Positions 1 through 9,200 of a DNA stretch of 46,635 nt are shown here, one piece after another; position 1 is the stretch's first letter; the number at the start of each line of letters is the position of its first letter. This DNA is from Cryomorphaceae bacterium (GTDB lineage Bacteria; Bacteroidota; Bacteroidia; Flavobacteriales_D; Sanyastnellaceae), in assembly GCA_016124575.1 (NCBI GenBank), contig WGNM01000048.1:1-46635 (forward strand), given 5' to 3'. A program made the translations under genes and the position numbers. The notes under the pieces were generated by a model. That model saw only the letters and a program-made list of their open reading frames with translations, was not told the origin of the DNA and did no database searches.

Positions 1-135
1 AGCTAAGGTTTACAAACAAGCAGCCTAGAAATGAACAAAAACACTAAGTTATGAGTCTCCCCCAAACCCCCTCATTACTATGGTTTTAACTGTTATATTT
101 GTATATAAGATCTTGTCCAAACAATCCCGACCACT

Positions 136-639
136 TCAGTCGTCCCAGCGATAGCAATCCATATCTCTCATTTTCTTTATCCAAAAAACAGCTTTATCCA
201 AGTCTGGTTCAGTTCCTTCTCCCATAATATATTGAACCGCCACATTGTTCATGCCAGAGCAATTACCACCTTGAGCACTTTTGAGTTCGAGGTCAAACGC
301 TTTTTTTAGATTGACCTCAACACCACATCCTTCATAATACATCATTGCTAGCAATGTTTGAGCACCAGCATGACCCTGTGTAGAACTTTGAGTTAACCAA
401 TAAACTCTCTCTTTAGCTTCTGCAGTTGGACATTCCCTAACAACACATCCACAAAGGCTAAAACCCACTTGGTATTGAGCTTCAGCGTTACCGTTTTTTG
501 CAGCTTTCATAACTGCAGGGGATACTTGGGATAAATATTCGTGGGTATTGAAGAATAATAGGAAGAAAAAGATGAATCTCAGAAAACAACTCCAAAACAA
601 ACGCTTCTCAATCCGAACAAAATCTTGTTTAATTTTCAT
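136..639 (-). CDS. Sel1-repeat secreted or membrane-anchored protein
   Basis: A 167-residue protein made of Sel1-like (SEL1/TPR-type) helical repeats, a scaffold normally used for protein-protein contacts. A hydrophobic stretch at about residues 15-38 is a signal peptide or a single anchor. Repeats follow from about residue 48: GNAEAQYQVGFSLC, then GHAGAQTLLAMMYYEGCGV with KKAFDLELKSAQGG, then GMNNVAVQYIMGEG with DKAVFWIKKM. These are the A-x-x-L/V-G...G-x-G...A-x-x-W/L patterns of Sel1. Several cysteines (CGCVVREC) sit in the first repeat and could form disulfides outside the cytoplasm. It lies alone, more than 430 bases from the next gene on the same strand. No specific partner can be named. 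Fold is fairly sure; role unknown. Confidence 0.7.
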   Translation of the reverse strand: MKIKQDFVRIEKRLFWSCFLRFIFFFLLFFNTHEYLSQVSPAVMKAAKNGNAEAQYQVGFSLCGCVVRECPTAEAKERVYWLTQSSTQGHAGAQTLLAMMYYEGCGVEVNLKKAFDLELKSAQGGNCSGMNNVAVQYIMGEGTEPDLDKAVFWIKKMRDMDCYRWDD

Positions 640-1029
640 AGTTGCCTTTTTGTGATTAAAGAAATTACCTCATATCATAACCAGAAAGGTTTGAAAGCAG
701 AGTTAAGACGAATGAAACCTTCATTTAAATTCAAAATTCGTACATAGTTAGTTTTGCATGGAAATACGAATTCAAAATAGAAAGACTTCTGAATTTTTCT
801 ACTCACAAATCAAACGCAAATGTATGAAAAAACAAGGATAATACCCTTCTAATAAGACAGCTAAATGTGCTGAGCTTCGACACACTTCCGTGATATGGGA
901 AAACTATATATAAATGGCAAATGGTATTTGTGATGATTTGAGCATGCTTATCGGAAATCCTAAAACGAGATTATAAATAATGTTGAATGTCTATCTAATG
1001 GTTAATAAAGATAGAAAGTGACAATCGTT
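640..1029. other. Gene-free A+T-rich stretch
   Basis: About 400 bases between the Sel1 gene and the hairpin after the TIGR04255 cassette. I see no convincing coding frame, tRNA or tandem repeat. It should contain the promoter of the Sel1 gene, but I found no clear TAnnTTTG element. Confidence 0.5.
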
Positions 1030-1073
1030 AGATTCTCCCTAATTCTTTGTTTAAGGCAATTAAAGGAGAATCT
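1030..1073 (-). terminator. Imperfect hairpin at the end of the TIGR04255 cassette
   Basis: Inverted repeat AGATTCTCC (1030-1038) and GGAGAATCT (1065-1073), with an inner TAATT/AATTA pair, just at the stop codon of the last cassette gene. It may end or stabilise the cassette transcript. There is no T-run after it in the reverse direction, so it is not a standard intrinsic terminator. Confidence 0.35.
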
Positions 1074-1630
1074 CAAGCAAGCTCCTCAACTGGGAAAATT
1101 AACTCTTTGAATACCTGAATCAATTTCTTTCTATATTCTTTTCTTAAATGGGTTTTATAAAATTTACCATCGAAATGAATACGTGTTTCTTTCTTCGCCC
1201 ATTGGTTATGTGAGTAAACTTCATCAAAAATCAATTCGTCATGAAGAGTTAGTCGGTGACGAATGTTTATTTGAGTATGGGAATAATCGCAAGGGTTTGG
1301 GGCATGTTCTAGAACACAAGTGATATGGTGCACGCCTAAATCATTTCCTTCATTTTTTTCTTTTAAGATTTCAATTTTAGTAATGTCTTCGATTAACGCC
1401 TTTCTGCAATTGTCTCCTATTGACGGGACGTCTATCGTTAGAATGTGTTCCTTTTCTATTAACACATCCCATTTACATGAGTATGCGGTTAATATTGATG
1501 GGAATTCTATGTCGTTTCCAGACTTGGACACTCTGTAAAAGCCTTGACCTTTTTCAAATTCACTTTCATTGAATACTTTTTTGTCATTCCATTGAAGATA
1601 TTCAGGAACACCCGCACGATCACAATTCAT
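1073..1630 (-). CDS. Uncharacterised protein, third gene of the TIGR04255 cassette
   Basis: A soluble 185-residue protein with no signal peptide or membrane segment. I do not recognise a named domain. It is mixed alpha/beta: beta-rich in the first 140 residues and ending in a basic amphipathic helix (HLRKEYRKKLIQVFKELIF). The segment HAPNPCDYSHTQI at about residues 108-120 recalls the NPaHa-I-like motif I associate from memory with short proteins encoded beside TIGR04255 genes; this is unverified. It starts 5 bases after the stop of the preceding gene, so co-transcription and probably a joint function with the two genes upstream are expected. Reading frame is convincing from length and cassette spacing; function unknown. 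Confidence 0.65.
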   Translation of the reverse strand: MNCDRAGVPEYLQWNDKKVFNESEFEKGQGFYRVSKSGNDIEFPSILTAYSCKWDVLIEKEHILTIDVPSIGDNCRKALIEDITKIEILKEKNEGNDLGVHHITCVLEHAPNPCDYSHTQINIRHRLTLHDELIFDEVYSHNQWAKKETRIHFDGKFYKTHLRKEYRKKLIQVFKELIFPVEELA

Positions 1631-1635
1631 TCAAA

Positions 1636-2190
1636 CTACAGCTTACTGGTTAACGAAAAAGTATCAAAATTCTCATCGAAAGGAAATATTTCATTGTATG
1701 TATCCTCTCTTTTTTCGGTGATGTGGAGAAATTCAATGTCACCATCTTCGTCCAATATCAAATTCTTGAACTCACGACCATTTTTTATATAAAACGCTAT
1801 TTCATCTTCCCCAGTACGAATAATTTGAACGCTGAACTTGCCTTGTGCTGCAAGGTCTCTAATTATTTCAGAGCCTATTTTGAATATAACATCATTCTCA
1901 AAAGCCAACTCTTCAATCAGAGAACGAAGTTTTTGTATCTTATCCCAAATAAAGGTGATACTGGAGGGATATATAACGCTTTCTGAACTTCCCGTCGAAC
2001 TTATAGAATTCATTCCCCATGTTGTTATTGTTCGAGAAGCTGATGCGTCTTTTTTGACTTCAACCGTATAACTCTTAATTGGGTTAGCTTTTTTATTGTA
2101 GGCAGACTCAGATGCTTGACGAGTTAAATATGAACTTTCTCGCAAGCGAGTTGTGACGGCACTATCTGGAATTAATACATTTTCTGTCAT
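1636..2190 (-). CDS. Uncharacterised protein, second gene of the TIGR04255 cassette
   Basis: A soluble 184-residue protein without signal peptide. The first 80 residues are polar and Ser/Thr-rich, including ITTWGMNSISSTGSS. Then comes a helical segment (about 84-118, FIWDKIQKLRSLIEEL) and a C-terminal beta-rich segment with EIAFYIKNGREFKNLI and LDEDGDIEFLHI. I do not recognise a named family. The shape, a helical region followed by a strand pattern ending in an acidic D-x-DGD-x-EF motif, is like small proteins I recall next to TIGR04255 genes, but I cannot verify that. It lies 12 bases after the TIGR04255 gene and 5 bases before the third gene, so all three very probably form one transcript. 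Confidence 0.65.
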   Translation of the reverse strand: MTENVLIPDSAVTTRLRESSYLTRQASESAYNKKANPIKSYTVEVKKDASASRTITTWGMNSISSTGSSESVIYPSSITFIWDKIQKLRSLIEELAFENDVIFKIGSEIIRDLAAQGKFSVQIIRTGEDEIAFYIKNGREFKNLILDEDGDIEFLHITEKREDTYNEIFPFDENFDTFSLTSKL

Positions 2191-2202
2191 GATTGCTTTG
2201 AG

Positions 2203-2922
2203 TTACTCTATCACACCTGCGAGTTCTTCGGTTATTAAGTTTACAAATGTATCATGCAAGTGATGATGCCCTTCTTCTAAGATAGAACTGAGTGAATCTA
2301 AATCGTGCGTTTTAATTTTTGGCTCTATGTGAGCATAGGTCAAATCGACAACTACATTCATGGCCTTTTCATTTATTTTACTGTGCAATCTTACAACAAT
2401 AAACTTATTTGTTTCTAAGGGAATCTCTAAGGTCAAATTGATCAAAGGCATCCCATAGTTCTCAGGGTGTGTTAAAGAAACATTGAAATATCTTGAAAGA
2501 TAGAAGCCATCTTGGGGCAGTTCAAAAACATTTATTGCCCTTAAATCCACCCGCTGAATAAAAGATTCTTTCATTGAAGCCATCAAGCTTTGGTATGCAA
2601 AATCAATGTCTTGTTTGAAAGACTCCCATCTATCATATGCTCTTAATTGATGAATTGCAATATTATTATTATGCAGCTGAATCAGTTTTTCCCCATTGTC
2701 ATTCATGAACTTCATGGCGCTTGTCAATGAAGGGTTCATACCTTGTGTTGGGCTAGAAAGATTGAAGTTCACGGCTGAAGCATTTTCTTTCTGAGTAAAT
2801 ACTCCTTTAGGTGATATTGCATCCCAGTAAACTCCAAAGATTGTATTGTCATCAATTGGGTCAAAAATGATTTGACATAGAGCTTCAACAAGCTTGTTGT
2901 TCTCAAATATTTTCCTATCCAT
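2203..2922 (-). CDS. TIGR04255 family protein, first gene of a three-gene cassette
   Basis: About 239 residues from the ATG at 2920-2922. The open frame extends 31 codons further (to 3015), but that part is unlike the family start and I prefer the internal ATG. The N-terminus carries the family signature: NNKLVEALCQIIFDP, matching the usual hydrophobic-VEA-x-C-x-I-x-F pattern. The C-terminus ends with LHDTFVNLITEEL, again typical of these 250-residue proteins, where a helix before an F-x-x-L-x-T-x-E motif closes the chain. The family is sporadically distributed and has no established function. No membrane segment is present. It leads two tightly spaced small genes. Together with the toxin-antitoxin-like module and phage debris beside it, this suggests an accessory, perhaps defensive, cassette; that role is inference. 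Confidence 0.7.
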   Translation of the reverse strand: MDRKIFENNKLVEALCQIIFDPIDDNTIFGVYWDAISPKGVFTQKENASAVNFNLSSPTQGMNPSLTSAMKFMNDNGEKLIQLHNNNIAIHQLRAYDRWESFKQDIDFAYQSLMASMKESFIQRVDLRAINVFELPQDGFYLSRYFNVSLTHPENYGMPLINLTLEIPLETNKFIVVRLHSKINEKAMNVVVDLTYAHIEPKIKTHDLDSLSSILEEGHHHLHDTFVNLITEELAGVIE

Positions 2923-3067
2923 AGAGAATATTAAAAGTAAGATTAAGGAACATTGATACCTAATCTGCGCTCGCAAATTATACAATTTGAGAAAGCGAAT
3001 GTTACTTTTGGTCAAAATTTCCCCAATGAGGATGTTGAATTCAACCGACTGAGCAGATTTCGATCAC

Positions 3068-3230
3068 CTATTTAACATTAATCACTAGGTACATTGTTAC
3101 TCCGTGAATCTTGGCTTTTTCAGCGAGATATAATTGTTCTATTGAAAAAGTATTGATAAGTCTTGGTTACTTCATGATAAGTTGAGTATTCGATTCCATT
3201 TCTTTCGCCACCTGAATTTAAAAGCTGCCT
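3068..3230 (-). pseudogene. Frameshifted remnant of a small unknown gene
   Basis: In reverse translation one frame reads SGGERNGIEYSTYHEVTKTY and then runs into stops. The next frame, picking up at a short A/T run near 3143-3150, reads SIEQLYLAEKAKIHGVTMYL up to a stop at 3068-3070. Joined, they give a plausible C-terminal protein segment broken by one frameshift. No family is recognised. The gap between the TIGR04255 start and the next ORF (2923-3332) otherwise shows nothing clear. Evidence is only the protein-like look of the two frames. Confidence 0.3.
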
Positions 3231-3332
3231 CCTTTGCAATTATTTGTACTATTCAAACTAATGCGCTATGTCGTTTGGCCCATTCTCAATTCATCAAACT
3301 GAGCATTTAAAAATCTATTCCCGATAGAAGGT

Positions 3333-3620
3333 TCAGCCTTCCATTTTTTCTTCAGTTAGCTTGTTTGTTTCGTAAACACCTTTACCAAATATGCCACTTA
3401 ACTTTTTGTCCGGCTTTTTGCTGCAAGTCCAGACCTTTTCTGTAATATCTACAATAGTAGAAATTTTGAAGGCTTTGTAGCCTGTGTTTGCGTCGGTAAA
3501 GCCCTGATCTCTGAAAGCTCGTGAGTGATTGAGCATTTCATTAGCGAGCAAGACCGGTAACGTTTGTGTCATTCGATCGAGAGCACGATAAAGCCTATCA
3601 AAGTCGATTTACTTAGACAT
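3333..3620 (-). pseudogene. Decayed phage-like gene with early in-frame stop
   Basis: Reverse-strand frame beginning with an ATG at 3618-3620 that overlaps the stop of the preceding small gene, as in compact phage operons. Codon 4 is TAA (3609-3611), after which the same frame stays open: IDFDRLYRALDRMTQTLPVL, then LNHSRAFRDQGFTDA. This resembles the beginning of phage virion-morphogenesis or tail-completion proteins (an F-R-x-Q-G-F/W-x-D pattern); that match is from memory and weak. From about 3482 downward the protein changes character exactly where a 30-base direct repeat begins, so the tail (to the stop at 3333) looks like a chimera. An ORF of 79 codons from the ATG at 3572 could still be translated. 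Likely a dead prophage gene. Confidence 0.45.
3453..3482. repeat. 30-base direct repeat, copy 1
   Basis: Identical over 30 bases to 3902-3931 and in the same orientation, 449 bases apart. In the reverse strand this copy is read as GYKAFKISTI inside the decayed ORF, while copy 2 is read in another frame. That argues for a rearrangement rather than a conserved protein repeat. Confidence 0.9.
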
Positions 3621-3810
3621 AACTCACCTCAACACCGTCTTCGGCGTTTTGTACCGTCGAGAATTTGATTTTACGCCCCTCAGACTTGTCGATCAGCTCG
3701 AGAATACGAGCCAAACCGAGAGCCCGCAAATAGGCCATCGGGTCTTGCGCATCGGGGTGATTATTCATATACGTATTGACTTTTTCAAGTTCGGCGGGTT
3801 TCAATATCAT
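3613..3810 (-). CDS. Small phage-like protein of unknown function
   Basis: A 65-residue soluble protein, N-terminus MILKPAELEKVNTYMNN, with a helical middle (DPMAYLRALGLARILELIDK) and a short beta-like end. Its ATG overlaps the stop of the upstream fragment as ATGA (3807-3810), and its stop overlaps the ATG of the next, decayed gene. This overlapping style is typical of phage structural operons. I do not recognise the family. Since both neighbours are broken, it is probably a surviving piece of an inactive prophage. Confidence 0.45.
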   Translation of the reverse strand: MILKPAELEKVNTYMNNHPDAQDPMAYLRALGLARILELIDKSEGRKIKFSTVQNAEDGVEVSYV

Positions 3811-3947
3811 GGGTTCAAGTTTTTAATCATTTTCTCGGTCATTTCAGTGTAGATGTCGCGCAAGTCTTTGGCGAACGTTGGGAAAAAGTGAGCGAATTTA
3901 AAATAGTAGAAATTTTGAAGGCTTTGTAGCCGGGCGCTAATTAGAGT
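3807..3947 (-). pseudogene. C-terminal fragment of a phage-like gene
   Basis: An open frame without a start, ending in TGA at 3807-3809, reading QNFYYFKFAHFFPTFAKDL and then RDIYTEMTEKMIKNLNP. The helical, charged C-terminus and the ATGA coupling to the next small gene make it look like the end of a real protein. The 5' part is missing: the frame is closed by a stop upstream of 3947, close to the end of the 30-base repeat copy at 3902-3931, which probably marks the deletion or rearrangement junction. Confidence 0.35.
3902..3931. repeat. 30-base direct repeat, copy 2
   Basis: Exact copy of 3453-3482 in the same orientation. It lies at the broken 5' end of a gene fragment, which suggests that it formed at, or drove, a recombination event in decayed phage DNA. 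Confidence 0.9.
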
Positions 3948-4061
3948 TCAAGTCAGCGTGAATTACACATCCATTCTTTTGATCGAATAATTTTCAGCCC
4001 TCTCTCGCGAATTTTCTCTCTTCAATCACTCATAACAATACAGTACAAAAATGTGAGTATC

Positions 4062-4099
4062 GGTTGACATTAATTATTATTTTATTATTTTTGTCAACC
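4062..4099 (+). promoter_or_regulatory. Promoter embedded in a palindrome (likely autoregulatory operator)
   Basis: GGTTGACA (4062-4069) and TGTCAACC (4092-4099) form a perfect 8-base inverted repeat around 22 A/T bases. The left arm contains TTG at 4064-4066, a fit to the Bacteroidota -33 element. TATTTTTG at 4086-4093 is an exact TAnnTTTG -7 element overlapping the right arm, with 19 bases between them. A dimeric XRE repressor on this site would cover the whole promoter. The gene directly downstream (ATG at 4114) encodes such a regulator, so autorepression is inferred. Confidence 0.65.
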
Positions 4100-4113
4100 A
4101 ATAAACCACCACA

Positions 4114-5166
4114 ATGAACGACATTTTCGCCCAAAGACTAAAATCAGCGCGGCTAATTAAAGGTTTATCTATGGAAGAATTGGCCAATGCCGTAGGTGTA
4201 TCTAAGCAAATGATAAGCAAGTATGAAGCGGCTAAGTCGATGCCCGATAGTTCGGTATTGATCGCACTTTCGAGGGCATTGGAGCAAAAGGCTGATTACT
4301 TCTTTCGACCAAGGAAAATACAAATTGGCGAAGTAGAATTTCGAAAGAAAAGCAGTTTGAGCAGCAAAACCTCGAACGGCATTGCTGAGCAAGTTCATGT
4401 GATGCTTGAAAATTACATCGCGGTTGAAGATATTCTCTCTATTGAATCCAAGTTCGAAAATCCGCTTGAAAGGTTTGTGATTCAGAATTTAGAAGATGTT
4501 GAAATTGCAGTAAACGAGCTTAGATCAAAATGGGAAATTGGTTACGACCCTATTTTGAACATTGTTGAATTGCTTGAATACAATGAGATAAAGGTTTTGG
4601 AGATTGATTTAAACATGTCTGGTTTTGACGGCATGGCCACCCGAGTAGACGAACTATACCCGGTAGTGGTTGTCAACAAAAACTTCCCCATCGAACGAAA
4701 AAGATTCACTTTGTTGCATGAACTTGGTCATCTCCTTCTAAAGTTTACCGCCGATTTCACTCACAAAGAAATAGAGCAATTTTGCAATCGTTTCGCCGCA
4801 GCGCTTCTTCTGCCGGCAAAAGTTGCAATTGAAAAACTAGGTGAACATAGAAGTCAGTTGGCAATCAAAGAACTTGAACTTATCCAACGTCGATTTGGCA
4901 TTAGTATTCCAGCTATTGTCTATCGGCTTGCAGATTTAAAAGTGATTACCCCAACTCTACTTAGAAGGTTCTTTATTCGAATGCGAAGTGATGAGCAATT
5001 CAAGAACCAGGTGAGTGTAACTCGCTATATGGGAGAAGAAACTTCTACTCGCTATGAAGGTCTCATTCACCGTGCCCTTACTCAAGAGTTAATGTCTTTA
5101 AGCAGAGCAGCCTCATTACTAGGAGTTAGTATTTCAGAAATCCGCAAATCCTATCAACTCGTCTAG
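4114..5166 (+). CDS. XRE-family regulator fused to ImmA/IrrE-type metalloprotease
   Basis: A 350-residue cytoplasmic protein. Residues about 5-62 form an XRE helix-turn-helix (GLSMEELANAVGVSKQMIS). Residues about 150-250 form an ImmA/IrrE (DUF955) zinc-protease domain with HELGH at 202-206 and the downstream acidic helix EIEQFCNRFAAALLLP supplying a third ligand. The C-terminal 60 residues contain another helix-turn-helix-like stretch (LMSLSRAASLLGVSISEIR). Proteins of this type act as antitoxin or phage/ICE repressor whose activity is removed by self- or partner cleavage. A PIN-nuclease gene starts 3 bases after the stop, so this is most likely the antitoxin/regulator half of a toxin-antitoxin-like pair. 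The palindromic promoter in front fits autoregulation. Domain calls are strong; the antitoxin role is inferred. Confidence 0.88.
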   Translation: MNDIFAQRLKSARLIKGLSMEELANAVGVSKQMISKYEAAKSMPDSSVLIALSRALEQKADYFFRPRKIQIGEVEFRKKSSLSSKTSNGIAEQVHVMLENYIAVEDILSIESKFENPLERFVIQNLEDVEIAVNELRSKWEIGYDPILNIVELLEYNEIKVLEIDLNMSGFDGMATRVDELYPVVVVNKNFPIERKRFTLLHELGHLLLKFTADFTHKEIEQFCNRFAAALLLPAKVAIEKLGEHRSQLAIKELELIQRRFGISIPAIVYRLADLKVITPTLLRRFFIRMRSDEQFKNQVSVTRYMGEETSTRYEGLIHRALTQELMSLSRAASLLGVSISEIRKSYQLV

Positions 5167-5169
5167 ACG

Positions 5170-5703
5170 ATGGTTGTGGTTGTCAATGATACGTCGGTAC
5201 TTATTGACCTCAAAGACATGGGGCTTTTATCGACGTATACCGCCTTAGGCTGGGAATTGAGAACAACAGATTTGATCATATTAGAACTTTCAGACGACCC
5301 TGATTTTCAACAAATCGATAACATGGTTCGTTCAGGTAATTTAACAGTCGATAAGCTAGACCCGCAGTCGATGACAATTGTTGTTGAAATGAGCATTGAA
5401 CATGCCGGACTAAGCATCCAAGATTGTTCAGTATGGTACAGCGCAAAACAATTCAACGCGATTTTGATGACTGCAGACCAAAGGTTGAGGAAGAAAGTGC
5501 AAAAAGAAGGGATTAAAGTGCATGGTTGTCTTCACATTATTGAACAATTGCATTCGATAAATGCAATATCCGGAGAAGCGGCCATCCATGCACTCAAAAC
5601 ACTGAAGCAAAAAAATCAGCGCGCTCCTCTCTTTGAGATTGATAAATTAATCGATAAGCTAGAAACCACCGAGGGGTTAATAAAGGAATCTGATCCCCAC
5701 TAA
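5170..5703 (+). CDS. PIN-domain protein, probable toxin ribonuclease
   Basis: A 177-residue protein with the four acidic positions expected of a PIN nuclease: Asp7 in VVNDTSVLIDL, Glu39 in LIILEL, Asp85 in SIQDCSVWYSA and Asp103 in LMTADQRL. PIN domains of this layout cut RNA in a metal-dependent way and often serve as toxins. The gene follows the XRE/ImmA protease gene after 3 bases, the order antitoxin then toxin being common. The C-terminal 50 residues (ALKTLKQKNQRAPLFEIDKL) are helical and may contact the partner. It could instead be a housekeeping RNase, but the pairing and the position in an accessory region favour a toxin. The catalytic set looks intact. Confidence 0.82.
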   Translation: MVVVVNDTSVLIDLKDMGLLSTYTALGWELRTTDLIILELSDDPDFQQIDNMVRSGNLTVDKLDPQSMTIVVEMSIEHAGLSIQDCSVWYSAKQFNAILMTADQRLRKKVQKEGIKVHGCLHIIEQLHSINAISGEAAIHALKTLKQKNQRAPLFEIDKLIDKLETTEGLIKESDPH

Positions 5704-5835
5704 GCAGATTCCGCGTAAAAACAAGACTTTATTCAGTAGTGTGAGTCTTTCATTCAATCGCTCGACATAAAAGTGATAATAGAATTACCGACGTTTTGAT
5801 TTTCTTTGTTTTTTTTGACCTTTTTCGATTCTTTC

Positions 5836-5869
5836 AAAAAAAAGCCCCCTGAAAATTCAGAGAGCTTTT
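5836..5869 (-). terminator. Intrinsic terminator of tRNA-Arg
   Basis: Read in reverse, AAAAGC and TCTGAA pair with TTCAGG and GCTTTT around a short loop, followed by a run of T. It begins directly after the 3' end of the tRNA. Confidence 0.75.
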
Positions 5870-5870
5870 G

Positions 5871-5942
5871 TAGCCCCGCCAGGGATCGAACCTGGATTTT
5901 AGGTACCGGAAACCTACGCACTATCCATTGTACTACGGAGCC
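5871..5942 (-). tRNA. tRNA-Arg (anticodon CCG)
   Basis: A 72-base cloverleaf on the reverse strand. The acceptor GGCTCCG pairs with CGGGGCT (one G-T at the first pair), the anticodon stem is TAGGT/ACCTA with loop TTCCGGT, giving anticodon CCG for codon CGG, and the T arm is CCAGG-TTCGATC-CCTGG. The discriminator base is A and CCA is not encoded. Its 3' end faces the accessory region to the left, the usual geometry for elements that integrate into tRNA genes. Confidence 0.93.
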
Positions 5943-5952
5943 AAATGGGCGG

Positions 5953-5960
5953 CAAATATA
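5953..5960 (-). promoter_or_regulatory. Promoter -7 element of tRNA-Arg
   Basis: Reverse strand reads TATATTTG, an exact TAnnTTTG element, ending 10 bases before the first base of the tRNA. No clear TTG -33 element is visible. Confidence 0.6.
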
Positions 5961-6158
5961 TGAAACTTCTTTAGGCATTCCACCTAACATCCGCACGGGA
6001 TGTGCGATGAAAAATGACATAAATAAGGTATTGCGCAGCGCGAGTTTGGTGCCGACATTTGCGCAATGCAATCGCCCGAAACACATGCACCTTGTCTATT
6101 CCTCCAGCTTCTCGAGGCGGGGGCGCAGTTCAATAAAAAGAAGTGTTGCAAAGCACAC

Positions 6159-6188
6159 AAAAACGGACATCGTTGCAAAAAATGTCCG
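6159..6188 (-). terminator. Intrinsic terminator after the M1 peptidase gene
   Basis: Reverse strand: CGGACAT, 11-base loop, ATGTCCG, then TTTTT. The 7-base stem starts 12 bases beyond the stop codon of the peptidase gene. The rest of 5943-6200 shows only the tRNA promoter. Confidence 0.75.
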
Positions 6189-6200
6189 GGCCGCAAGTAA

Positions 6201-9200
6201 TTAATTCCCCTGATTTCTTGCCAATTTGAACGGATTCAGCGCGGCGATGTTGAATTGGAAATTGAGTACATCTTCAATTTCATTGTTCGAAGCACCCATA
6301 TAATTTCTTGAAAGAAGAGGAATATGCAAAGCAATAACGTCTTCTATCAATTTAATCGATATCCCCATGCTAAAAGCAAAGTAATCGTTACTTTGAACAT
6401 TGTCAATACTTGCATCGTAAACACCACAGCCGACAAAAACTGAAATGATCTTTACTTTTGGTATATCGGCATCAACCCTCAATGTTGACATGAGACTCTG
6501 TGCTAAAATTGGAATATGAATATCACCTTGCCCACCTGCAACTTGTCTATACAAATTATCATTATTTCCACCTCTTTGTAAAAACAGATAGTCATATCCC
6601 GGATCATTTCCATATAACCAGCCTACTCCACTAAGACGATAAACCGAATTTCTACTTACTATTCCGGAATAAAAACGCCATGAGAGATTATTTTCTCTTA
6701 AATACTTGGATCTGCCCTTGTACTCAAAATGAAGGTAATGAGCTCTTGGATGATAGTAACCTTTGTATTCTACTCCGATAAAATGGTTCACCAAACCCGA
6801 ATGCTTCGCATTGTATCGCAACCTTAATTGTCCTTCTTCACTCTTTTGATCTAAATATCGCACATCAAAAAACTGAACGAGAGGATAAGAAAACACAAAC
6901 CCTGTCGTGGCTTTGGTAGAAATTACGGCCAATTCTGCCGCAATAGAAGACTTCCATGCAGAATTAGGAGTTTTCGTGAATTCACGCACATACTCAAGAG
7001 AATTACGCAGGTACCTTTGACTAAATGAAAAGAACTGATAATATGTAGATTGCGGAAAAGGCATACTATCAAATGGTTTGTAATAGTCATTGAAACTGCT
7101 CGAGCGAAGGTGAAATGAACTTTTACCATTATAAAATGACATCCTTCCAAACCCATTCAAATTTTTCGTCGCAAAACTATAAAGCGGAGTAAATGAATAC
7201 TCAAAGTTTTTCCACGGCAGCGTCGCATTGTGAATATTCAGTCCGACCATGCCTTTGTTTTGCTCGTTCCATGCTACAACAGGTGTTACAAACACTTGGG
7301 TATAGTTCGGATTTTCGATACCTGTCAACATCCGAATCTTTAACGGCTCAACCTTTTTGAACATCCCCGTGGTGCGGGCCATGTTGTTCTCGCGCCTGTA
7401 ATCCATCATTTGATCACCACCATCAATCTTCACTTTGTCGGATTCAGATTTCAAAACGATCTTCTGCGTTTGTCTAGGCGACAGTCCTTTGAACCATTGT
7501 TGCTCCAGGGGTTTTCCATCGGCGTAGGTGGTGATTTCAAACGGACCATTGATCTGTCCTCGGTTTTTAACCTTCAGCACCGTTTCTCCATTTTTCACTT
7601 TGGCACTGCGAATGGCATAATCTACTTTCTTGGTGGTCTTGATCAAATCGTCAAAAAACCACGAAAGGTCTTCACCTGTTGATGTCTCAAGCGTGGTGCG
7701 CAAGTCATTGGGATTTGGATGCTTGAATTTCCACTGGTCGAAATACGTCTGCATGGCCTTATCAAATCGCTCTTCACCCAAATAGCCTTTCAGATAATCG
7801 AAGGCGACCGCCGTCTTTTTGTAGACGATGGTTCCGTAGTTCATATCTGTATACGCATCTGAATGGCATTGGATGGGCTGATCGACCTTACCCCGACCTG
7901 TAATCAAATATGCATATTCATCGGTGGTGCGGTATGATAGCTCTTTCGCGCCAGCAAGTTCCACTATGTTCTCCGACAGCATACCGCCCATAAAACCGAG
8001 AGAATCGCCGTACTTGGTTTGCATATACCGCGTTTCGTTAAACGAGTTGATTCCCTCATCCATCCACGCATTGTCGCGCTCGTTCGACCCCAGAATTCCG
8101 TAAAACCAATTGTGTCCAACTTCATGAACAATCACCGTTTCTAGTCCCAGCGCATTGCCCGACTCACCAATAACCGTAACATTTGGGTACTCCATGCCAC
8201 CACCTGCTGATATGGTGCCATCTATGGCCGTTACCTGATTGTATGGGTAGTCGCCATTCCACAGCGAATAATAATACGTCCCATCGTTTATGTATTCAAT
8301 AGCCCGTTGCCATAAGTCGGCACTTTCAGGCGTGTACATGGCCCATGAGGCAACAGTCTTTCCGCTGTGAGGAAGTTTTACCTCGCCTTTCATCACATGC
8401 CAGCGTTTATCGGCAAACCAGGCGAAATCATGGACATCCTTTTGGGTATATCGAATGGTTTTCATCGTTGTTGATGATGGTGGAAAAGCATTTGTTTTCG
8501 CAAGTAATCCCTGAGTTGTTTGCTCCACACGCTCATTCAAAAAAGCAATTTCGGCGGCTGATTGTAGATCACCAGTAGCTCCCACCACGTAGTTTTCAGG
8601 CAGCGTGATAGAAACATCATACGAACCGAATTCAGAATAAAACTCACCTTGATCTAAGTAGGGCATTTGGTGCCAGCCATCTCGGTCGTACACCGCTGGT
8701 TTTGGATACCATTGGGTTATCTGATATGATTCGCCAACATGTCCCAAACGTGAAATCTCACCGCTCGGAAGCTTCACTCGAAACGGCGTAGTAAGGCGAA
8801 ACGACTCGCCCGGTTGCAACACTTGAGGCAAATAGATTTTAGCGATATCAATATTCACTGCATCGTACTCCCACGCTGCTTTTTGTCCGTTCACCGTAAA
8901 ATCCAATCCATCAATAAACCCCAGCTCCTTCTCCAAAGCGTAAAACATAAAACGATCGCCATTGCGTAACTTCTGCTTCGCTAGTGCTGTTTTCGCATTT
9001 TTATAGGCATTTGGCCACAGGTGGACGTAGATAAACGGCAATGCATCGTTTGAGTTATTTTTGTATTCAAACTCCAAATTCCCATTCAACATGTGGTTCA
9101 CGTCGTCGAGTTCGACATCAATTTTATAATTGACTTCTTGCTGAAAGTACGCCTGTACATCCTGCGATTTAGCAGATAAAAAGATGAAAATAGCAGCGAG

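Follow-up and report, generated by a model that had tools for sequence, protein, structure and literature searches.

Three-gene cassettes headed by TIGR04255 genes: a candidate toxin-antitoxin-like module of exchangeable parts in a Cryomorphaceae bacterium

Introduction

What might three small adjacent genes do together, when the first belongs to a sporadic protein family and the other two resemble nothing convincing in the family libraries? The question is raised by contig WGNM01000048.1 of the Cryomorphaceae bacterium assembly GCA_016124575.1 (Bacteroidota), which is considered over its whole length (positions 1 to 46,635 of the forward strand; 46,635 nucleotides, hereafter the window) and is an entire contig of its genome. 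Its minus strand carries a gene of the TIGR04255 family (gene A) followed by two further genes (B and C). An initial annotation suggested that these, if they are a constant three-gene set of unknown proteins, would be a new system, possibly for defence or conflict. The annotation asked whether the two partners recur with TIGR04255 elsewhere, and held that the idea would fall if they never did, or if profile matches gave all three genes an ordinary known function. The analysis reported here points to a three-gene, toxin-antitoxin-like conflict module made of exchangeable parts, a reading of the sequences that we consider probable on balance. A literature search for the name TIGR04255 (sporadTIGR04255, an NCBIfam subfamily) returned nothing, and neither a function nor partners were found in print.

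Results and Discussion

A compact three-gene cassette that recurs behind TIGR04255

Gene A (2203-2922, minus strand; ATG start, 239 aa) scores 94.9 bits (6.8e-27) against the NCBIfam model TIGR04255, whose curated cut-off is 30 bits, and is thus a member of this family and its sole match in the genome. Among the PHROGs, A has one match (0.001), to a family without assigned function; in Pfam, no family reaches E <= 1. Gene B (1636-2190, minus strand; 184 aa), which may be an adaptor or antitoxin, follows A after 12 nt, and gene C (1073-1630, minus strand; 185 aa), the proposed effector, follows B after 5 nt, so that the locus presents the layout of adjacent, small, co-directional genes found in type II toxin-antitoxin systems. 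Searches at E <= 1 returned for B a sub-threshold Pfam match (0.15) and a PHROG match (0.18), for C a PHROG match (0.23), and for neither gene any NCBIfam or PADLOC model; there is no convincing match to B or C in these four libraries. The coordinates of the open reading frames (ORFs) and the library scans hence agree with the initial annotation on the spacing and common strand of the three genes, on the TIGR04255 gene in first position and on two small partners that resist assignment, and the profile scans gave no ordinary known function for all three.

The description of the family as sporadic was likewise upheld, since, in a sample of 395 genomes from the phylum, 22 have a match above the cut-off. 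Matches were also obtained in 15/244 and 20/245 genomes of two other classes and in 11/195 genomes of a further draw, these draws overlapping, so that their counts are not additive. Relatives of window B were found at E <= 0.01 in six of 395 genomes of the class, its own genome counted, and among these B-positive genomes two weak matches with internal stops (G720, G634) were left aside. Full orthologues of A, B and C are present in two class-mates (G719, locus L055; G510, locus L056), with identities to the window of 35 and 30% for A, 28 and 27% for B, and 27 and 29% for C. Window B matches its counterparts beside A at 9e-18 in L055 and 5e-13 in L056, and weakly (2e-5) in L026, which holds a weaker relative of the trio. 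The partners therefore do recur with TIGR04255 elsewhere, as L055 and L056 attest. Outside the window, these two loci alone show the exact trio clearly, and the claim of a constant set did not survive: A stays, while B and C change together.

The arrangement itself recurs far more widely. We examined 51 cellular and plasmid loci with a usable, non-redundant A, out of 61 with an A match, leaving out near-copies (L030, L037, L047) and loci in which A is broken or truncated or the contig ends (L038, L071, L073, L085, L086, L090, L091); in L048 and L072, the locus script found no A. B starts within 35 nt of A, or overlaps it, in 48 of the 51 loci. Two downstream ORFs satisfy this spacing in 43 of the 51. 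When a like rule for tight, co-directional ORFs of at least 60 aa was applied, 43 of the 51 qualified once more, compared with 21 of 68 control ORFs, which were 180-350 aa long and taken from 15 stretches in 14 of the genomes. A tight gene pair behind TIGR04255 thus recurs more often than chance.

The third gene is exchanged and the second gene follows it

Among the 52 third genes analysed, Pfam searches at E <= 0.01 identified PemK/MazF domains in three, HEPN in three, PIN in two and zeta in one, and NCBIfam VapC models also match third genes. MazF, HEPN, PIN and zeta are classical toxins that need neutralisation. The zeta gene is annotated as such on a Vibrio parahaemolyticus plasmid, and on plasmid pTB1 of Thermus brockianus (L059) an unannotated HEPN-like ORF (5303-5692), with an RAYYAAF motif recognised by eye, lies behind TIGR04255 and B. 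Sorting the same 52 genes by motif yielded 25 of type I, 12 of type II (motif QGD...CD), five of type V (LARxI), four HEPN, three MazF, two PIN and one zeta; the labels I, II and V are our own, assigned by motif and by eye; the pattern used in the script missed the motif in some type-I members.

Window C was placed by us in type I, a loose family of which it appears to be a divergent member. Its motif HAPNPCDYSHTQI (1268-1306, minus strand) is the counterpart of the pattern H.P...N.aH..I in other type-I third genes, and its group matched a group of phage-type C proteins in hhalign comparisons with a probability of 83 (E 9e-6), and with 70.5 (E 3.9e-5) when three sequences were used. Across the five type-I groups, seven of the ten pairs passed the filter (probability above 20 or E below 0.01), with probabilities of 7 to 94. 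Type II is even looser than type I: two of its subgroups are linked at 98, all further links shown are below 15, and one subgroup has a weak link to MazF (11.8). Two further searches with third genes were of narrow outcome: the MazF of L033 found its own copy alone in 98 genomes of the phylum, and the type-I C of L031 found no relative on plasmids. A subgroup of loci (L061, 4788-5660; L064, L066, L076) shows a helix-turn-helix (HTH)-like region in B and a third gene with the approximate pattern ..GD..HPC/SHxCD..; in its Rhodococcus plasmid member, the third gene is short and precedes a transposase gene.

The distribution of third-gene types over a tree of 60 A proteins indicates that the exchange has happened repeatedly. 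At least 12 changes of type are required (seven types, for which the minimum possible is six), and the well-supported branches by themselves demand no fewer than four changes for type I, three for type II and two for type V. This tree was built quickly: 22 of its 57 inner branches lie below 80, several branches are long, and it omits the near-copies and broken A proteins listed above, together with L094, L098 and L103-L105. The behaviour of B is different. Of 112 B-B pairs detected by BLAST at E <= 1e-3, 107 join labelled loci, and every one of these 107 links loci that share a third-gene type (with shuffled labels the mean is 32.6 and the maximum 64), whereas 377 of 566 A-A pairs join different types; part of this contrast stems from the stronger conservation of A, whose relatives can be recognised at greater distances. 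Since no B pair crosses types and A pairs do, B and C seem to travel together behind a shared A.

The middle protein may consist of two parts

On the V. parahaemolyticus plasmid with the A-B-zeta arrangement, the C-terminal part of the 215-aa B (up to residue 213, starting at 107 or 121) matches the partner genes located immediately ahead of zeta homologues on two Rhodococcus plasmids (127 aa on pLPS8 and 125 aa on pR8L1, aligned over residues 22 or 32 to 125), with 35-36% identity and E values of 8e-17 (pLPS8) and 2e-17 (pR8L1). The comparison comprised these two Rhodococcus records, among 499 matching plasmid records, and the locus itself. No TIGR04255 protein was found within 2.5 kb on either side of the Rhodococcus zeta pairs. 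Because the Vibrio B measures 215 aa from its first ATG and 179 aa as annotated, its N-terminal excess over these partners amounts to roughly 50 to 90 residues.

A second exchange affects the other end of the cassette. Two Hymenobacter plasmids, the sole two matches of this kind, carry a DUF4209 gene in the place of A, followed by B and by an unannotated type-I C ORF (L135, 2405 to ~3340; L136, 2474 to ~3420). No A was detectable at either locus, and their B proteins resemble other B proteins only from about residue 50-90 onward. A survey of the HEPN superfamily places DUF4209 in a family whose members are predicted to have catalytic activity and which is noted in restriction-modification related operons (PMC3710099).

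The zeta locus and the Hymenobacter comparisons, a small sample, point to a B whose N-terminus is matched to the first gene and whose C-terminus is matched to the third. In window B, the BLAST match with the nearest relative, L055, covers residues 75-184 and the match with L056 extends back to residue 29. By analogy with the zeta and Hymenobacter cases, the less conserved residues 1-74 (1969-2190, minus strand) are proposed as an A-binding extension, and the conserved residues 75-184 (1639-1968, minus strand), which include DEDGD, as the putative C-binding, antitoxin part.

Alternatively, B and C could form a working two-gene toxin-antitoxin unit, with A as a separate passenger or enhancer, such as an immunity or mobility gene. 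Consistent with this, pairs like B-C occur without A, with zeta on the two Rhodococcus plasmids and behind DUF4209 on the two Hymenobacter plasmids, and PADLOC contains PDC-M32A and PDC-M32B models but no model that matches window A. Two observations make this account unlikely in our judgement: A stands directly before B, within 35 nt or overlapping, in nearly all of the loci counted above, and the B that lies beside A in the zeta case is longer at its N-terminus than its A-less partners.

Carriage on plasmids and viral contigs, and links to defence candidates

TIGR04255 cassettes are present on plasmids of Thermus, Crinalium, Methylocystis, Rhodococcus and Vibrio. Relatives of the family were also found in 11 distinct IMG/VR contigs, in ten of which two more genes lie behind A, the contig ending in the eleventh. 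In one viral contig (L113, 1018-2813), a type-I A-B-C cassette lies between a terminase-large-subunit-like gene and a portal-like gene, and in L097 the cassette precedes a gene whose product shares 30% identity with an annotated major head protein. Searches of annotated phage genomes with two queries (window A and one phage-type A) returned no TIGR04255 match, and viral scans with queries A3 and A11 no relative, query A12 yielding short matches only. Three related viral contigs (L103, L104 and L105, ~3900-5500), possibly Campylobacter-like, show two small genes behind a TIGR04255-like gene that has diverged strongly; they aligned badly and were excluded from the counts.

Scans against PADLOC provide a further connection. 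The B proteins of 11 of 54 TIGR04255 loci match the best of the PDC-M32A models (best 5.3e-9), and the C proteins of three of 52 match PDC-M32B (best 1.8e-6), with two others matching PDC-M05B and two HEPN_IX. By these sequence matches, some related cassettes have a B-C pair similar to a candidate phage-defence system in the PADLOC list. One paper was found that names PDC-M32; it records the candidate among Sinorhizobium prophages and gives no functional assay of it (PMC12429752).

The MazF, HEPN, PIN and zeta genes in the third slot, the PDC-M32 matches of relatives and the viral carriage together strengthen the reading as a conflict or defence system that the initial annotation had offered, even as the constancy it attributed to the set was lost. 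They also bear on the possibility that the locus is a housekeeping or regulatory operon and no conflict module at all. Such an operon would accord with the lack of an assigned function for window B and C, and with a fold of A that only loosely resembles TATA-binding protein (TBP) and guanidino-kinase domains; the sporadic presence of the family in the phylum, the toxin families in the third slot and the carriage on plasmids and viral contigs make it very improbable.

Predicted fold of A and comparison with known systems

The AlphaFold2 model of A, built from 14 sequences, has a mean predicted local distance difference test (pLDDT) score of 85.5 and a predicted template modelling (pTM) score of 0.83, and consists of roughly two halves, each predicted as strand, helix, sheet of strands and helix. 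Foldseek returned as its best PDB match the S-adenosylmethionine decarboxylase (AdoMetDC) prozyme (1.2e-4), followed by TBP entries with probabilities of 0.91-0.99 and TM-scores of ~0.24-0.42; giant-virus TBPs recur among the viral models matched. In VIA-align, guanidino kinases reached Z scores of up to 9.1, little above the level that its notes call common. The modelled A is thus loosely TBP-like in arrangement, and no homology is claimed. Sequence comparisons with the PDB added little: the A profile found no chain at E <= 10, and searches with A, with phage-type C and with B gave nothing useful.

Epsilon-zeta, MazEF/PemK, HEPN and VapBC systems are normally two-gene modules. Their toxins fill the third slot of other TIGR04255 cassettes, which differ from them in the addition of A and, in the zeta case, in a longer B. 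Closer in gene number are the toxin-antitoxin-chaperone (TAC) systems, including CmdTAC, in which a dedicated third component, a SecB-like chaperone, likewise accompanies unrelated toxin families. The antitoxin of TAC systems is described as having an extra region, the chaperone addiction domain (ChAD), that ties it to the chaperone and can be moved between toxin-antitoxin families; this extension is C-terminal, although on model proteins it was active from the N-terminus as well (PMC5105189). CmdTAC is described as an anti-phage system whose chaperone, CmdC, senses a capsid protein (PMC11618068). The extra part of the zeta-locus B is N-terminal, in contrast to the C-terminal ChAD, and window A is not a SecB-like protein by sequence, its model consisting of two strand-helix-sheet-helix halves. 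A SecB-like chaperone was considered for A and dropped, because Pfam offers nothing for A at E <= 1 and the PDB no chain for its profile at E <= 10; SecB is also missing from the structural matches listed for the A model, an absence that proves nothing. We accordingly file the window locus, by its sequence, under TIGR04255 (A) as a type-I version of a modular cassette, and not as PDC-M32 or TAC.

The comparison with CmdTAC raises the possibility of a defence switch instead of an addiction module, in which A would be a sensor, B a relay and C an enzyme switched on by the complex. The sensing of a capsid protein by CmdC (PMC11618068) lends this some appeal. The cassette is, moreover, found in viral contigs and with many different effector types. 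We nevertheless regard such a switch as rather improbable, given that the MazF, HEPN, PIN and zeta proteins of the third slot are classical toxins that must be neutralised, and that the gene preceding zeta elsewhere is a homologue of B in the zeta locus.

A proposed mechanism and the points that weigh against it

In the toxin-antitoxin-like module that we favour, C would be an effector harmful to the cell or to an infecting phage, and B a two-part neutraliser whose C-terminal part fits a particular C and whose N-terminal part couples B to A. A would be the constant TBP-like saddle protein that B requires in order to hold C; alternatively, A may sense a trigger (a phage product or stress) and let B go, releasing C. 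Binding of A to the N-terminus of B would make neutralisation conditional, much as SecB-like chaperones do through the ChAD in TAC systems (PMC5105189). For the window itself, we infer the toxicity of C, its neutralisation by B, the binding between the proteins, the role of A, the trigger and any benefit in defence. A broader proposal, which we offer tentatively, is that TIGR04255 is the constant platform of previously undescribed tripartite anti-phage or addiction modules. Its saddle would dock the N-termini of interchangeable antitoxins, placing under one trigger the MazF, HEPN, PIN and zeta toxins together with three or more uncharacterised effector families, that of window C among them; with the platform exchangeable for DUF4209, both ends would be plug-in parts around B.

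Several results weigh against this mechanism. Window C itself has no Pfam or NCBIfam match to the known toxin families (MazF, HEPN, PIN, zeta), its AlphaFold2 model is unusable (pLDDT 53), and it joins well only the phage-type group: a third version of the profiles linked the two with a probability of just 35.3 (E 4e-4), and the pairs window-HANIxGWP, window-Ie and M32B-Ie failed the hhalign filter. The C of type-I loci could instead be a regulator or an antitoxin, type II may lump unrelated families, and types II and V, 17 of the 52 third genes, are without known function. The types are also clustered on the A tree, where the 12 changes compare with a shuffled mean of 22.8 and were as few in none of 200 shuffles; the exchange of third genes is therefore repeated but not free. 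The two-part architecture of B depends on one zeta locus, two comparison records and the chosen start (215 or 179 aa), and a MazF-type B showed no significant match to its Roseomonas counterpart, in one of eight records.

The connection to defence is open to similar objections. None of the three window proteins has a PADLOC match at E <= 1, so that they do not fall within PDC-M32, and when ten third genes were scanned singly, L088 alone matched PDC-M32B; the link to PDC-M32 is hence indirect. Around A, 118 ORFs from 15 loci match 157 PADLOC models at 1e-12, compared with 106 models for 117 control ORFs (of 152, from 11 of the 15 stretches), these counts being of models and not of ORFs. We make no claim of defence enrichment from these numbers, because they come with the best 25 models listed, among which helicases dominate in the control, and the ORFs with a match cannot be counted. 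Models for a type I methyltransferase, DpdF and mad2 are among those matched by TIGR04255 neighbours, with no enrichment shown, and PglZ-like and restriction-type genes were read by eye near TIGR04255 in L042 (2851-12343) and L028 (1163-6803).

Should the mechanism be correct, the sporadic and uncharacterised family TIGR04255 would gain a testable role, and the third genes of types I (with PDC-M32B), II and V would become candidate toxins or phage-defence effectors by the logic of replacement. It would also imply that the principle of TAC systems, in which an antitoxin is made conditional on an additional protein, arose on two or more occasions from different proteins. The pattern of exchange would further provide a way to find new toxins, by inspecting the third slot behind TIGR04255.

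Surroundings of the cassette

A stem-loop beginning at the stop codon of C (1030-1073, minus strand) may mark the 3' end of the cassette. The initial annotation had called this hairpin unusual. Its long stem exists, but 16 of 200 shuffled sequences fold at least as well (z -1.39) and no T run was seen behind the stem, so that it cannot be considered out of the ordinary. Scans for promoters and terminators gave counts resembling those of shuffles. Downstream of the cassette lies a Sel1-repeat protein gene (136-639, minus strand; Pfam 7e-10), with no evident link to it.

On the opposite strand, 1.2 kb from the cassette, a second toxin-antitoxin- or defence-like pair (4114-5703) bears out the module of this kind that had been reported nearby. 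It consists of an XRE/IrrE-type regulator gene (4114-5166, plus strand; Pfam HTH_3 and Peptidase_M78; best PADLOC model RmrA, 1.4e-48) and, directly behind it, a weakly PIN-like gene (5170-5703, plus strand; Pfam PIN 0.01, PDC-S70 5.7e-5). The putative phage debris of the initial annotation corresponds to small ORFs at 3333-3810. The nearby tRNA gene, also reported earlier, is a tRNA-Arg at 5870-5942, the only match in an Rfam scan of positions 1-6500 of the window.

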